64,000 nucleotides of DNA from Pelagovum pacificum. GTDB lineage: Bacteria; Pseudomonadota; Alphaproteobacteria; Rhodobacterales; Rhodobacteraceae. The stretch spans positions 3,976,867 through 4,040,866 of the forward strand of contig NZ_CP065915.1 of NCBI RefSeq assembly GCF_016134045.1, given 5' to 3'. The notes below the pieces were generated by a model. It saw only the letters and a list, made by a program, of their open reading frames with translations. It was not told the origin of the DNA and did no database searches. The position numbers and the translations under genes are program-made. Of this stretch, positions 9,368-26,332 are shown piece by piece (positions within the stretch are counted from its first letter, which is position 1; each line of letters starts with the position of its first letter).

Positions 9368-11739
9368 ACCGTGCGGCACTCGCCGCGCTGCTGAGCCACT
9401 GGCGGCGCAATCCGTTGCAGCTGTTCACCCTGATCGCCGGCCTGTCGCTGGCCACCGCGCTCTGGTCCGGGGTTCAGGCCGTGAACGCCGAGGCGCGCGC
9501 CAGCTACGACGCCGCTGCCGCGACGCTTGGCGAGGGGCAGTATGCGCAACTCCTGCCGCCGGAAGGCGAAGAGGTCGGGATGGACCAATATGCCGCGCTG
9601 CGACGCGCCGGCTGGCGTGTCAGCCCGGTGATCGAGGCACGGGTTAACGGCGTGCGCATCGTCGGGCTCGACCCGCTGACCGCTCCGGGCGGGCTGGGGC
9701 CGGTGGACCTGTCCGCTTCGCCCGATGTCGGGACCTTCCTCGGTGGTGACGGACAGCTGTTCGGCACGGCGGAGGCGCTCGACGCGCTGGGCGAGGTCGC
9801 ACCGGAAAAGGTGCTGGCCGACGATGTCGCGCCGATGACCGTTATCACCGACCTGTCCGTTGCCGAACGGCTGACCGGGAACGGGCCAGCGCGCCTCTTG
9901 GTGTCGCCCGAGCAGCCGCTTGGCCGTCCGGCGCTGGAGGACATCGCGCCCGGCCTGTCGCTGCGGCCGGCGCAGGGCGGGTCGGATGTCGGACGGTTGA
10001 CCGATTCCTTCCATTTGAACCTGACGGCCTTCGGCCTGCTCAGCTTCGCCGTCGGACTGTTCATCGTGCACGGCGCGATCGGCCTCGCGTTCGAGCAGCG
10101 GCGGCCGATGGTGCGCACGCTCCGTGCGCTGGGGGTGCCGCTCGACCGGCTGGTCTGGCTGATGGGGGCGGAGCTGATCCTGATCGCGCTCGCCTCCGGG
10201 ATCGTGGGCGTCGTGCTCGGCTACGTGATCGCGGCGGCGTTGCTGCCCGACGTGGCCGCAACCCTACGGGGGCTCTACGGCGCGTCGGTCGGCGGCACGC
10301 TGGAGCTTCGCCCGGTCTGGTGGCTCTCGGGCCTCGCCATCGCGGTGCTCGGCACGATGGCGGCGGCGGCGAGTTCACTGGCGCGGATCGCGCGGATGCC
10401 GCTGCTCGCCTCCGCCCGGCCGAGGGCGTGGGCAATGGGCGCCACGAAGGGACGGCTCGTGCAGGGCGGCGCGGCGGGGCTGTTGCTGGCGGCGTCGGTC
10501 GTGCTGCTGTTCATCAACGGGATGGTCGCCGCCTTCGCCGCGCTCGGCGCGTTGCTGATCGGGGCGGCGCTGCTGCTGCCGCTGCTGCTCGACACCGTGT
10601 TGCGGCTCGCGCAGCGCCCGGCCCGCCGCCCGGTGGCGGAGTGGTTCTGGGCCGACAGTCGCCAGCAGATGCCCGGCCTCTCGCTGGCCCTGATGGCGCT
10701 GCTTCTCGCGATGGCGACGAATGTCGGCGTGACGACGATGGTGTCGTCCTTCCGTCTGACCTTCGTCGGCTTCCTGGACCAGCGGCTTGCGTCGCCGCTC
10801 TATGTCTACGCGACGGGCGACGAGGAGGCCGAACAGCTGGAGGCGTTCCTCCAGGACCGCGCCGACTCCGTCCTGCCGGTGATCTGGGTCGATGGCGACG
10901 TCGCGGGCGTGCCGACCGAGATCTATGGCGTGCGCGAGGATGCGAACTACCCGGACAACTGGCAGTTTCTGGACTCCCGTCCGGATGCATGGGCGCGGAC
11001 CTTCGCGGGTGAGGCGGTCATCGTGAACGAACAGCTCTACCGCCGAGCGGAGCTGTCGCTCGGCGACGAGATCGACGTCGGGGGAGAGACCCTGCCGGTG
11101 GTCGGCTTCGTCGGGGACTACGGCAACCCGGGTGGGCAGGCGATCATCGGCGAAGCCCTGTTTGCCGCGCAGAACCCCGACGCGATCCCTGAGCGCTTCG
11201 CAGTGAACACCGCCGATCCAGAGGCCCTGTCCCGGGCGCTGGTCGACGAGCTGGGGTTGCCGCAAGCGCAGATCGTCGATCAGCGGGCGCTCAAGGACTT
11301 CTCGCTGTCGATCTTCGAGCGGACCTTCACCGTGACCGGCGCGCTGAACGTGCTGACCTTGGCCGTCGCCGGCTTCGCCATCCTGATGAGCCTGCTGACG
11401 CTGGCGGGGATGCGGCTGCCGCAGCTCTCACCGGTCTGGGCGATGGGGCTGACGCGGCGCAGCCTTGGCTGGCTGGAACTGGGGCGTGCGGTGCTGCTCG
11501 CGGCGCTGACCGCCGTGGCCGCGCTGCCGCTGGGGCTGGCACTGGCGTGGGTGCTGCTGGCGAAGGTGAACGTCGCGGCCTTCGGGTGGCGGCTGCCGAT
11601 GTTCCTGTTCCCCGGCGACTACGCGCTGCTCGGCCTGTTCGCGCTGCTCGCGGCGGGGGTGGCCGCGCTGTGGCCCGCGCGGCGGCTGGCGACGGTACCG
11701 CCGTCGCAACTGCTCAAGGTGTTCTCCAATGAACGGTAA
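9364..11739 (+). CDS. ABC transporter permease, FtsX family
   Basis: This 791-residue inner-membrane permease starts at a GTG overlapping the ATPase stop by 4 bases. A first helix lies near residue 20, followed by a large periplasmic domain of about 200 residues. Three FtsX helices follow, then two further helices, a helix starting a second half near residue 440, another periplasmic domain and three C-terminal helices. That duplicated layout matches YbbP/AttG-like permeases rather than the shorter LolC or LolE. The 3' end overlaps the lipocalin gene by 11 bases, so that secreted protein is the likely partner. The substrate is not known. Confidence 0.88.
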   Translation: MNRAALAALLSHWRRNPLQLFTLIAGLSLATALWSGVQAVNAEARASYDAAAATLGEGQYAQLLPPEGEEVGMDQYAALRRAGWRVSPVIEARVNGVRIVGLDPLTAPGGLGPVDLSASPDVGTFLGGDGQLFGTAEALDALGEVAPEKVLADDVAPMTVITDLSVAERLTGNGPARLLVSPEQPLGRPALEDIAPGLSLRPAQGGSDVGRLTDSFHLNLTAFGLLSFAVGLFIVHGAIGLAFEQRRPMVRTLRALGVPLDRLVWLMGAELILIALASGIVGVVLGYVIAAALLPDVAATLRGLYGASVGGTLELRPVWWLSGLAIAVLGTMAAAASSLARIARMPLLASARPRAWAMGATKGRLVQGGAAGLLLAASVVLLFINGMVAAFAALGALLIGAALLLPLLLDTVLRLAQRPARRPVAEWFWADSRQQMPGLSLALMALLLAMATNVGVTTMVSSFRLTFVGFLDQRLASPLYVYATGDEEAEQLEAFLQDRADSVLPVIWVDGDVAGVPTEIYGVREDANYPDNWQFLDSRPDAWARTFAGEAVIVNEQLYRRAELSLGDEIDVGGETLPVVGFVGDYGNPGGQAIIGEALFAAQNPDAIPERFAVNTADPEALSRALVDELGLPQAQIVDQRALKDFSLSIFERTFTVTGALNVLTLAVAGFAILMSLLTLAGMRLPQLSPVWAMGLTRRSLGWLELGRAVLLAALTAVAALPLGLALAWVLLAKVNVAAFGWRLPMFLFPGDYALLGLFALLAAGVAALWPARRLATVPPSQLLKVFSNER

Positions 11740-22364: not shown

Positions 22365-23957
22365 TCAGACGTCGAAGACGAGGGGGCGCACCTGCTGGAA
22401 CTTGCCGGTGGCCTTGAGCTCTTCGACCGCTTTCGCGGGTACGACGTCATCGACATAGAGAAGCGCGATCGCCTCGCCCTTCTCCGCGGAGCGGCCGAGG
22501 GTGAAGTTGGCGATGTTCACGCCGTTGCTGCCGAGCGTGGTGCCGAGCGTCCCGATGATGCCGGGAAGGTCGGTGTTGGTGGTGTAGATCATGTGGCGGC
22601 CCACCTCCGCGTCGAGGTTGATGCCCTTGATCTGGATAAAGCGCGGCTTGCCGTCACTGAACACGGTGCCGCCGATGGAGCGTTCGCGCTGCGTCGTGAC
22701 GACCGTCACCTTGATGTAGCCCTCGAACGCGCCGGACTGGTCCTGCTTGGTCGTCGAGATGCGCACGCCGCGCTCTTTGGCGATGACCGGGGCGGAGACC
22801 ATGTTCACGTCGGGGTTAGTCACCTTCATGATGCCGGACACGACGGAAGACGTCAGCGCCGAGAGGTTCATCTCGGATGCCTGACCGTCGAACAGGATGT
22901 TGATCGCCTTGATCGGCTCGTCCGTCATCTGGCCGATGAAGTTGCCGAGGTGGCCGGCGAGCTTGATCCAAGGGCCCATGACCTTCGCCTCTTCCGCGGT
23001 GACGGAGGGCATGTTGAGCGCGTTCTGCACCGCGCCGGTGAGCAGGTAGTCGGACATCTGTTCGGCGACCTGCAGGGCGACGTTTTCCTGCGCTTCGGAC
23101 GTCGCGGCGCCGAGGTGCGGCGTGCAGACGACGTTGGGCAGGTTGAAGAGCGGGTTTTCCTTCGCCGGTTCCTCGGCGAAGACGTCGAAGGCCGCGCCGG
23201 CGACGTGGCCGTCCTTGAGCGCCTCGGCAAGCGCTGCCTCGTCCACCAGGCCGCCGCGTGCGCAGTTGATGATCCGCACGCCTTTCTTGGTCTTGGCGAT
23301 GTTTTCCTTGCTCAGGATGTTCTTGGTCTGGTCGGTCAGCGGCACGTGCAGCGTGATGAAGTCGGCGCGCTTGAGCAGGTCCTCGAGCTCGACCTTCTCG
23401 ACGCCGAGTTCGGCGGCGCGATCGTCCGACAGGAACGGGTCGTAGGCGACGACCTTCATCCGCAGGCCGACGCCGCGGGTGCAGACGATGCCGCCGATGT
23501 TGCCGGCCCCGATCACGCCGAGCGTCTTGCCGGTCAGCTCGACACCCATGAACTTGGACTTCTCCCACTTGCCGGCGTGGGTGGAGGCGGAGGCCTCGGG
23601 GATCTGGCGGGCGACGGCGAACATCATCGCGATGGCGTGCTCCGCCGTCGTGATCATGTTCCCGAAGGGCGTGTTCATCACGATGATGCCCTTGCGGGAC
23701 GCCTCGGGGATGTCGACGTTGTCGACGCCGATGCCGGCGCGGCCGATGACCTTGAGGTTGTCGGCGGCGGCGATGATCTTTTCCGTGACCTTGGTCGCGG
23801 AGCGGATGGCGAGGCCGTCATACTGGCCGATCACCTCGAGGAGCTTGTCCTTGTCCTTGCCGAGGTCGGGCTGGAAGTCGACGTCGATGCCCCGATCCTT
23901 GAAGATCTGAACGGCGGCGTCGGAGAGTTTGTCGGAGATGAGAACGCGGGGGGCCAT
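22365..23957 (-). CDS. serA: D-3-phosphoglycerate dehydrogenase
   Basis: SerA oxidises 3-phosphoglycerate to 3-phosphohydroxypyruvate, the first step of serine synthesis. The protein has 530 residues, the long form with an intervening domain and a C-terminal ACT domain (from about 455, beginning GRHMIYTTNTDLPGIIGTLG). The nucleotide-binding motif is GVIGAGNIGG near 150, and the catalytic Arg, Glu and His lie in the CARGGLVDE to TPHLGA stretch. The ATG at 23957 follows AAGGACC; an upstream ATG is less likely. It is downstream of serC in the same operon. Confidence 0.96.
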   Translation of the reverse strand: MAPRVLISDKLSDAAVQIFKDRGIDVDFQPDLGKDKDKLLEVIGQYDGLAIRSATKVTEKIIAAADNLKVIGRAGIGVDNVDIPEASRKGIIVMNTPFGNMITTAEHAIAMMFAVARQIPEASASTHAGKWEKSKFMGVELTGKTLGVIGAGNIGGIVCTRGVGLRMKVVAYDPFLSDDRAAELGVEKVELEDLLKRADFITLHVPLTDQTKNILSKENIAKTKKGVRIINCARGGLVDEAALAEALKDGHVAGAAFDVFAEEPAKENPLFNLPNVVCTPHLGAATSEAQENVALQVAEQMSDYLLTGAVQNALNMPSVTAEEAKVMGPWIKLAGHLGNFIGQMTDEPIKAINILFDGQASEMNLSALTSSVVSGIMKVTNPDVNMVSAPVIAKERGVRISTTKQDQSGAFEGYIKVTVVTTQRERSIGGTVFSDGKPRFIQIKGINLDAEVGRHMIYTTNTDLPGIIGTLGTTLGSNGVNIANFTLGRSAEKGEAIALLYVDDVVPAKAVEELKATGKFQQVRPLVFDV

Positions 23958-24049: not shown

Positions 24050-25204
<1,155 letters not shown>

Positions 25205-25250
25205 TATCTGATACCCTCTCAGATATACGCCCCTCGTTGGGGAGGGGTGT
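25205..25250 (-). promoter_or_regulatory. Structured serC leader (serC RNA motif) with the RBS in a hairpin loop
   Basis: On the minus strand, two hairpins precede serC. The distal one is CCCCTC-CCCAAC-GAGGGG (25230-25247). The proximal one is TATCTGA-GAGGGTA-TCAGATA (25205-25225); its loop carries the likely ribosome-binding site GAGGG and its base touches the ATG. The CCCTC of the distal hairpin could instead pair with the GAGGG loop, giving two exclusive states. A serC leader motif at this position has been described by comparative genomics in Alphaproteobacteria (the Rfam serC family, from memory). The ligand or trigger is unknown to me. Confidence 0.7.
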
Positions 25251-25260
25251 CCCACGGACG

Positions 25261-25289
25261 CAGATACGGGCCCTCGGATCGCCTTACAA
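25261..25289 (-). promoter_or_regulatory. Candidate serC promoter
   Basis: On the minus strand, TTGTAA (25284-25289) and TATCTG (25261-25266) are separated by 17 bases. They match the sigma-70 -35 and -10 consensus at 4 and 3 of 6 positions. Transcription from here would start just before the distal leader hairpin, which fits a short structured 5' UTR. Confidence 0.35.
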
Positions 25290-25462: not shown

Positions 25463-26332
25463 ATGCAGACCGTAACCCTGATCTCCCGTCCCGGCGGACT
25501 GAGTGCGCCGCTTGTCGAGTCCCTGCGCAACGCGTGGGGCGGCGGTGATGCCGTCTGGCTGTCGCCCGACGAGGCGGCGGAGTTCCCGGTTCTGCGACTT
25601 GCCGACAACTTCTGGCAGGTCTGGGAGGATCTTCAGGGCGAGGGCGTCGACCTTTGCGCACAGACCACGGGGCACCGGCGCCGCAAGCTGCTGATCGCCG
25701 ACATGGACAGCACCATGATCGCGCAGGAATGTATCGACGAACTGGCCGACGCGGCCGGTGTCGGCGACCAGGTGAAAGAGATCACGGCCCGCGCGATGAA
25801 CGGCGAGCTCGACTTCGAAGGGGCGTTGATCGAACGGGTCGCACTGCTGGAGGGGCTGCCGGAGACCGTGATCGACGACGTGCTCGACTCGCGCATCACC
25901 GATGCGCCGGGCGGCGTGACGCTGCTCTCCACCATGCGGGCCAAGGGGGCGTTCAGCCTGCTCGTGTCGGGCGGGTTCACCGCCTTCGCCGGGCCGGTGG
26001 CCGAGCGGATCGGTTTTGACGACCATCAGGCGAACGAGCTTCTGGCCCGGGAAGGCAAGCTGACGGGCGACGTGGCGCGACCGATCCTGGGCCGGGAGGC
26101 GAAGGTCGAGGCGCTGCGCACCGCGGCCCGCCGGCACGGGATCGGGCCGGAGGACGTGCTCGCCGTCGGCGACGGGGCCAACGACCTCGGCATGTTGTCG
26201 GTCGCCGGGACCGGGGTCGCGATGCATGCCAAGCCGGCCGTGCAGGCGGAGTGCGATCTGCGGATCAACCATGGCGACCTGACGTCACTTTTGTTTTTGC
26301 AGGGCTACGCGCGCTCCGAGTTCCTTGGATGA
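25463..26332 (+). CDS. serB: Phosphoserine phosphatase
   Basis: SerB hydrolyses O-phosphoserine to serine, the last step of the pathway. The protein has 289 residues: an N-terminal domain of about 70 residues, then a HAD phosphatase domain with nucleophile Asp80 and Asp82 in ADMDST, the SGGF motif with its Ser, a lysine in the LGREAK segment, and GDGANDLGML as the closing metal-binding motif. It diverges from serC-serA with a shared 258-base control region, so the whole serine route is in one place. Confidence 0.95.
   Translation: MQTVTLISRPGGLSAPLVESLRNAWGGGDAVWLSPDEAAEFPVLRLADNFWQVWEDLQGEGVDLCAQTTGHRRRKLLIADMDSTMIAQECIDELADAAGVGDQVKEITARAMNGELDFEGALIERVALLEGLPETVIDDVLDSRITDAPGGVTLLSTMRAKGAFSLLVSGGFTAFAGPVAERIGFDDHQANELLAREGKLTGDVARPILGREAKVEALRTAARRHGIGPEDVLAVGDGANDLGMLSVAGTGVAMHAKPAVQAECDLRINHGDLTSLLFLQGYARSEFLG

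Follow-up and report, generated by a model that had tools for sequence, protein, structure and literature searches.

What does the short leader in front of serC do, and through which structure would it act on the genes behind it? The window (the whole 64-kb stretch of DNA analysed) carries serC and serA on one strand and serB divergently (Table 1). The original prediction had drawn two hairpins in the serC leader, one of them around the ribosome site, and had proposed that they switch between mutually exclusive pairings.

Identity and layout of the leader

The window element is an ordinary member of RF00517, the serC leader family of Rfam. A full-length match (cmscan; model positions 1-52 of 52) lies on the minus strand at 25257-25206 and scores 71.7 bits (cut-off 35; E-value 7.4e-14), which bears out the earlier suggestion that this is the serC RNA motif. 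It is the only RF00517 match in the 64-kb window, where no other Rfam family scores above its cut-off, and the 24-base leader core occurs just once there when up to three mismatches are allowed (0.00 expected). The element is located directly 5' of serC, with serA behind, and a near-consensus promoter stands immediately upstream. Both predicted hairpins are present at the sequence level on the minus strand, and the GAGGG ribosome site falls inside the leader as had been claimed. We number the motif such that position p is window base 25258-p of the minus strand.

Compared with shuffled sequences, the 76-nt leader folds with unremarkable energy (z -0.87, with 39 of 200 shuffles as low), and the case for the leader thus rests on homology rather than on stability. 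A longer SerC, extended through the leader from an in-frame GTG at 25255, was judged unlikely because the linker before hairpin 2 has 2, 3 or 4 bases in relatives.

Table 1. Positions of the leader features and neighbouring genes in the window, and of the second leader in other genomes.
Feature	Position	Strand	Evidence and remarks
-35 element TTGTAA	25284..25289	-	17 bases before the -10 element; read from sequence
-10 element TATCTG	25261..25266	-	ends 7 bases before GGG; read from sequence
GGG, motif 5-7	25251..25253	-	putative 5' end of the mRNA; would form the 5' strand of the pseudoknot helix
Hairpin 1 (distal), motif 11-28	25230..25247	-	CCCCUC (25247-25242), loop CCCAAC, GAGGGG (25235-25230); RF00517
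Loop CCC, motif 17-19	25239..25241	-	proposed partner of GGG
Outer bases A10 and C29, closing hairpin 1	25229..25248	-	pair composition in 190 leaders
Hairpin 2, Rfam form, motif 32-47	25211..25226	-	holds the ribosome site; predicted minor form in the window genome
Longer local hairpin (proximal), motif 33-53	25205..25225	-	UAUCUGA (25225-25219) with UCAGAUA (25211-25205), loop GAGGGUA, abuts ATG; predicted dominant form in the window genome
Shine-Dalgarno GAGGG	25214..25218	-	read from sequence
serC, phosphoserine transaminase	24050..25204	-	TIGR01365, 620 bits vs 448; ATG at 25204-25202
serA, phosphoglycerate dehydrogenase, next after serC	22365..23957	-	TIGR01327, 672 bits vs 454
serB, phosphoserine phosphatase, divergent	25463..26332	+	TIGR00338, 203.5 bits vs 144; without such a leader
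serC-II loci	L282-L293 and L310-L325, e.g. L312 1501-1574	+ (L312)	sequence model

Hairpin 2 and the ribosome site

Removal of second copies, of repeated entries for a locus and of identical 75-mers left 174 leaders for comparison; the folding statistics refer to 169 of these, five lacking the hairpin-2 anchor. The conserved form of hairpin 2 is that of Rfam, a stem of positions 32-37 and 42-47 with the Shine-Dalgarno sequence in its 3' side and in its GNRA loop. Its core, CUGNRAGG, is found in 169 of the 174 leaders, and the stem covaries.

The proximal hairpin of the original prediction, with GAGGG in the loop and its foot against the ATG, is a different structure. Folding predicts it for the window genome, where this 7-bp hairpin outweighs the Rfam form (mean pair probability 0.997 vs 0.001) even though the sequence permits the stem and GNRA loop of the latter. 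As a general description it fails, being a local variant: all seven pairs are possible in 1 of the 169 leaders, and at least five pairs in 21. Within the genus (five genomes), only the window's own genome has the full hairpin, and one more has 5 bp of it.

When the 169 standard leaders were folded without hairpin 1, the Shine-Dalgarno sequence was unpaired with a median probability of 0.52. Sequestration by hairpin 2 alone is therefore weak.

Promoter geometry and hairpin 1

The -35 and -10 elements lie at a constant distance from GGG (motif positions 5-7) in 202 leaders, and their 17-base spacing is the consensus one. A T stands at -35 in 194 of the 202, and GGG is preceded by a pyrimidine in every one. 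Given the fixed promoter distance and the pyrimidine before GGG, we infer that transcription starts at G25253 and that the mRNA begins with GGG. This position is upstream of 25250, beyond which a start would have spoken against the original prediction.

GGG and the CCC of the hairpin 1 loop (positions 17-19) are invariant in 190 of 190 leaders, comprising all 174 and another 16 of 16 found through R1, a 29-nt model of hairpin 1 alone, with the proviso that the leaders were all found with models rewarding GGG and CCC, which biases the set towards invariance. The original prediction had named covariation of the stems among relatives as a check, and hairpins 1 and 2 both covary. For hairpin 1, an alignment of 108 of the 127 distinct 29-mers has 99.8% of its helix cells paired and two-sided changes in five of six pairs, and the score of the whole structure exceeds those of 500 out of 500 shuffles and of every slid control. 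GGG and CCC are constant in these 108 rows, and the pairs 5-7/17-19 contribute nothing to the covariation. The adjacent pair 4-20 is U-A in 40 rows, C-G in one and unpaired in 67.

Positions 10 and 29 lie outside the Rfam helix and are A.C in 176, G.U in seven, G-C in six, A.G in one and A-U in none of the 190 leaders, the forms with G10 being clustered in few lineages. Since A.C and G.U wobbles share a shape, 10-29 looks like the real closing pair of hairpin 1. The size rule for H-type pseudoknots suits helices of 3 and 7 bp with loops of 2 and 3 bases, and the invariant GGG and CCC would fit such a pseudoknot at the very 5' end of the message. Reiterative addition of G, which occurs in pyrG, was considered and set aside: position 8 may be A, C or U, and a mechanism of this kind would therefore not respond to any one nucleotide.

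Distribution and a changeable output part

RF00517 occurs in 128 of the 149 genomes sampled from the window's family, presumably Rhodobacteraceae, in 5 of 5 genomes of its genus and in 115 of 385 genomes of the class (111 above the cut-off). Among 14 control genomes, Caulobacter vibrioides alone gave a match. A serC signature follows within 270 bases in 173 of the 174 leaders, the exception being L127, and a search behind the leaders for other downstream genes that might point to the ligand found none.

R1 matched 131 of the 385 class genomes at E <=0.1, including 17 that RF00517 had not found. In 16 of these 17 the match precedes serC (for L202 this reading uses the bases that remain before the contig ends; G227 is the exception), and several of these leaders carry another or a reduced ribosome-site hairpin. 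The single match made by RF00517 and not by R1 (G153, 25.3 bits) is not at serC. Across the phylum, all 103 R1 matches among 398 genomes fall within the class. We take the hairpin 1 domain to be the sensor, which persists before serC in 16 genomes missed by Rfam.

A pattern search that required both a G at position 10 and a start of serC returned 29 records, which include Nisaea, Thalassobaculum, Tistrella mobilis, Oleispirillum naphthae and a Puniceispirillum MAG. By eye, seven of these have a different ribosome-site hairpin and 22 have no recurrent one, with predicted helices ranging from none to about 6 bp. The output part of the leader is thus changeable, a point that rests on the sequences because the openness of the Shine-Dalgarno sequence separates standard and variant leaders poorly: of 48 variant leaders, 31 were open, 16 paired and one unscored, against the median of 0.52 in the 169 standard leaders.

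Forty class genomes without the motif were also inspected. A serC gene was obtained from 26, and 24 of their leaders were read; no version of GGG/CCC with changed pairs was noticed among these 24, and R1 matched none of the leaders at E <=1. One of them, just before serC in genome G200 (L240), is a look-alike, GGGTCG...TCCTCCCACC...GGGCAC, which keeps GGG and CCC and is unreported by R1 at E <=1; on its sequence it is possibly a further divergent member.

A second leader before serC

Within the family, 21 genomes gave no RF00517 match. We obtained serC from 17 of them (one partial), and 12 carry a different leader before it, which we call serC-II. A SerA start lies behind serC in 11 of the 12 loci; at L284 it was not in frame in the three stretches viewed. 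A model, R2, was built from 11 of these leaders, L293 being left out and returning as L325 in the covariation alignment. R2 matched 18 of 256 family genomes. In 16 the match stands at serC, and these form the rows of the covariation alignment; the other two, L326 and L327, score 27-28 bits, lie away from serC and were excluded. Beyond the family, 0 of 195 class genomes matched at E <=0.001, an empty result that says little, though the model does find family copies. The 12 loci L282-L293 matched neither R1 nor any Rfam family, RF00517 included, at E <=1.

serC-II begins with GGG after a spaced promoter and has a ribosome site, GGAG, just behind it. Helix 1 pairs the first 12 bases with GGnGGC...CUC and has two-sided changes in six of 12 pairs, pair 7-37 being non-standard in 10 of 16 rows; a crossing helix of GGGYGAR with YUCRCCC has two-sided changes in two of seven pairs over the same 16 rows. 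Paired cells make up 89.8%, whereas shuffles give 83.8% (none of 500 equals the real alignment) and slid versions 40-51%, figures that ignore the kinship of the rows; a separate shuffle of the 11 distinct 8-base strands gave p 0.0018. The crossing helices are supported by covariation, which makes serC-II a candidate H-type pseudoknot. The CUC that partners GGG could also pair with GAG of the ribosome site, to which knot-free folding gives weight in only two of 16 leaders (0.48 and 0.42).

In a SerC tree of 102 rows, the SerC proteins behind serC-II branch apart from those that follow the usual leader in the same family. Given these separate branches, our guess is that the serC gene and its leader may have been exchanged together. 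Second copies of serC on plasmids of Azospirillum, Methylorubrum and Agrobacterium (L329, L330 and L331) have no adjoining serA, and neither leader model matches there at useful E-values.

Proposed mechanism and alternatives

We propose, giving the idea about an even chance, that the serC leader is a translational regulator of serC-serA whose sensor is its 5'-terminal domain. The sensor would be a compact H-type pseudoknot made from the first 25 bases of the mRNA, in which the initial GGG pairs over 3 bp with the CCC in the loop of hairpin 1. Hairpin 1, closed by A.C, G.U or G-C, would form the second helix of 7 bp, and the joining loops would be 2 and 3 bases long. The ribosome site would come directly behind the knot, inside hairpin 2 in most lineages. 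A metabolite of the serine pathway would hold the knot, the Shine-Dalgarno sequence would be kept from the 30S subunit, and serCA would be turned down. An RNA upstream of serCA has been reported from a Rhizobium etli tiling array.

A serious rival to direct sensing is that the hairpin 1 domain serves as the site of an RNA-binding protein which senses the metabolite and alters access to the ribosome site. The 2005 report gives serine, threonine, PLP, pyridoxal, pyridoxine, pyridoxamine and 4-pyridoxic acid as not binding to an Agrobacterium serC RNA, and its authors proposed a protein by analogy with PyrR after these seven metabolites had failed on naked RNA (PMC1273637). The RNA used spanned -46 to +11 of Agrobacterium serC. 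In Sinorhizobium meliloti pSymB, -46 coincides with G5; were the start codon a few bases further on, such a construct would lose GGG, and the negative binding results would then carry little weight. A domain so small and so strongly conserved in sequence would suit a protein site. The near-constant length of the helix and the restriction of its closing pair to A.C, G.U and G-C suggest constraints of shape instead, although a protein could impose the same; we regard this reading as possible, if less probable than a direct sensor. It is also conceivable, if rather improbable, that nothing in the serine pathway is sensed: GGG would be conserved as a start site for the initiating GTP, the hairpins would protect the 5' end of the mRNA, and the leader would set the level or stability of the message. 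A start-site constraint of this kind would fit the pyrimidine before GGG and the spacing of the promoter, and serC-II likewise starts with GGG. This explanation accounts neither for the loop CCC, invariant in 190 of 190 leaders, nor for the retention of a ribosome-site hairpin in 169 of the 174.

The switch of the original prediction, in which CCCCTC of the distal hairpin has GAGGGG of its own stem and GAGGG of the ribosome site as alternative partners, does not survive the comparison and we consider it highly improbable. The letters of the window genome do permit the second pairing, yet all five pairs are possible in only seven of 169 relatives, and in five of 71 within the window's family. 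Folding gives the pairing no weight: its probability is 0.0 in the window and exceeds 0.1 in none of the 169 relatives, and forcing it costs about 10 kcal/mol in the window (-14.7 vs -25.2).

To return to the direct sensor, serC-II allows a broader and more tentative reading, which we would not expect to hold but think worth stating: that Alphaproteobacteria possess at least two RNA sensors of differing sequence, RF00517 and serC-II, for one signal of the serine pathway, both being pseudoknots that start from the first transcribed GGG with the ribosome site just downstream. If so, the first GTPs of the message would be part of a binding fold, and one ligand should fold both RNAs.

Relation to known RNAs

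The window copy resembles RF00517 as described in 2005 (Corbino 2005, PMC1273637) in its sequence, both hairpins, the promoter directly before it and serC-serA behind; it differs in the hairpin around the ribosome site, for which folding predicts a longer, local register. Since that report (PMC1273637) the motif has counted as an orphan riboswitch candidate, and a 2020 review still treated it as one, in line with the original prediction, which knew of no established ligand.

SAM-II (the metA motif) is reported as another small alphaproteobacterial pseudoknot leader near its promoter, with other sequence and genes and with SAM as ligand. The SAM/SAH riboswitch is likewise described as an H-type pseudoknot; its ligand is a different one, and serC-II leaders did not match it in the Rfam scan. 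The preQ1-I (ykvJ) riboswitch is similarly compact: about 34 bases, in which one hairpin and a conserved tail form a proven pseudoknot. The tail of preQ1-I lies 3' of the hairpin, whereas the proposed partner in the serC leader is the first bases of the mRNA and not a 3' tail.

We met no description of serC-II, the 5'-terminal knot or use of the leader as an attachment site in the open-licence literature (Greenlee 2018 being outside its scope); serC-II and the output variants, all found outside the window, appear to be undescribed there. A proposed minimal domain starting at the first transcribed base, leaders that combine it with a different output, and another RNA in front of this operon lead to a direct ligand test, in which the true ligand should act on the serC leader and serC-II RNAs alike.

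Possible integration of phage-like elements at the leader

Four of the 128 motif-bearing family genomes (G050, G094, G123 and G056) contain a second, decayed copy of hairpin 1 (L169, L170, L171 and L173). Three genomes have both copies on one contig, separated by 7.7 to 11.3 kb. In three of the four, the second copy is flanked by the end of an integrase-like gene, two of these genes being confirmed by Pfam; none was seen beside the second copy in G123.

The leader core also occurs in 11 IMG/VR contigs (L265-L275), within about 260 bases of an end in the seven complete ones, and five of the 11 have an integrase-like gene (four confirmed). Hairpin 1 copies often adjoin a tyrosine integrase. The 10-kb contig L274 has two copies, at 69-99 and 9914-9944 (9.8 kb apart), together with genes for an integrase, portal, protease, connector, capsid and terminase; the 11 reading frames tested yielded no tail gene. 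A further set of terminase, portal and capsid genes lies in the island of G094. Capsid-forming phage satellites are a known class of elements, and judging by their gene content these islands and contigs look like such satellites using the leader DNA as attB.
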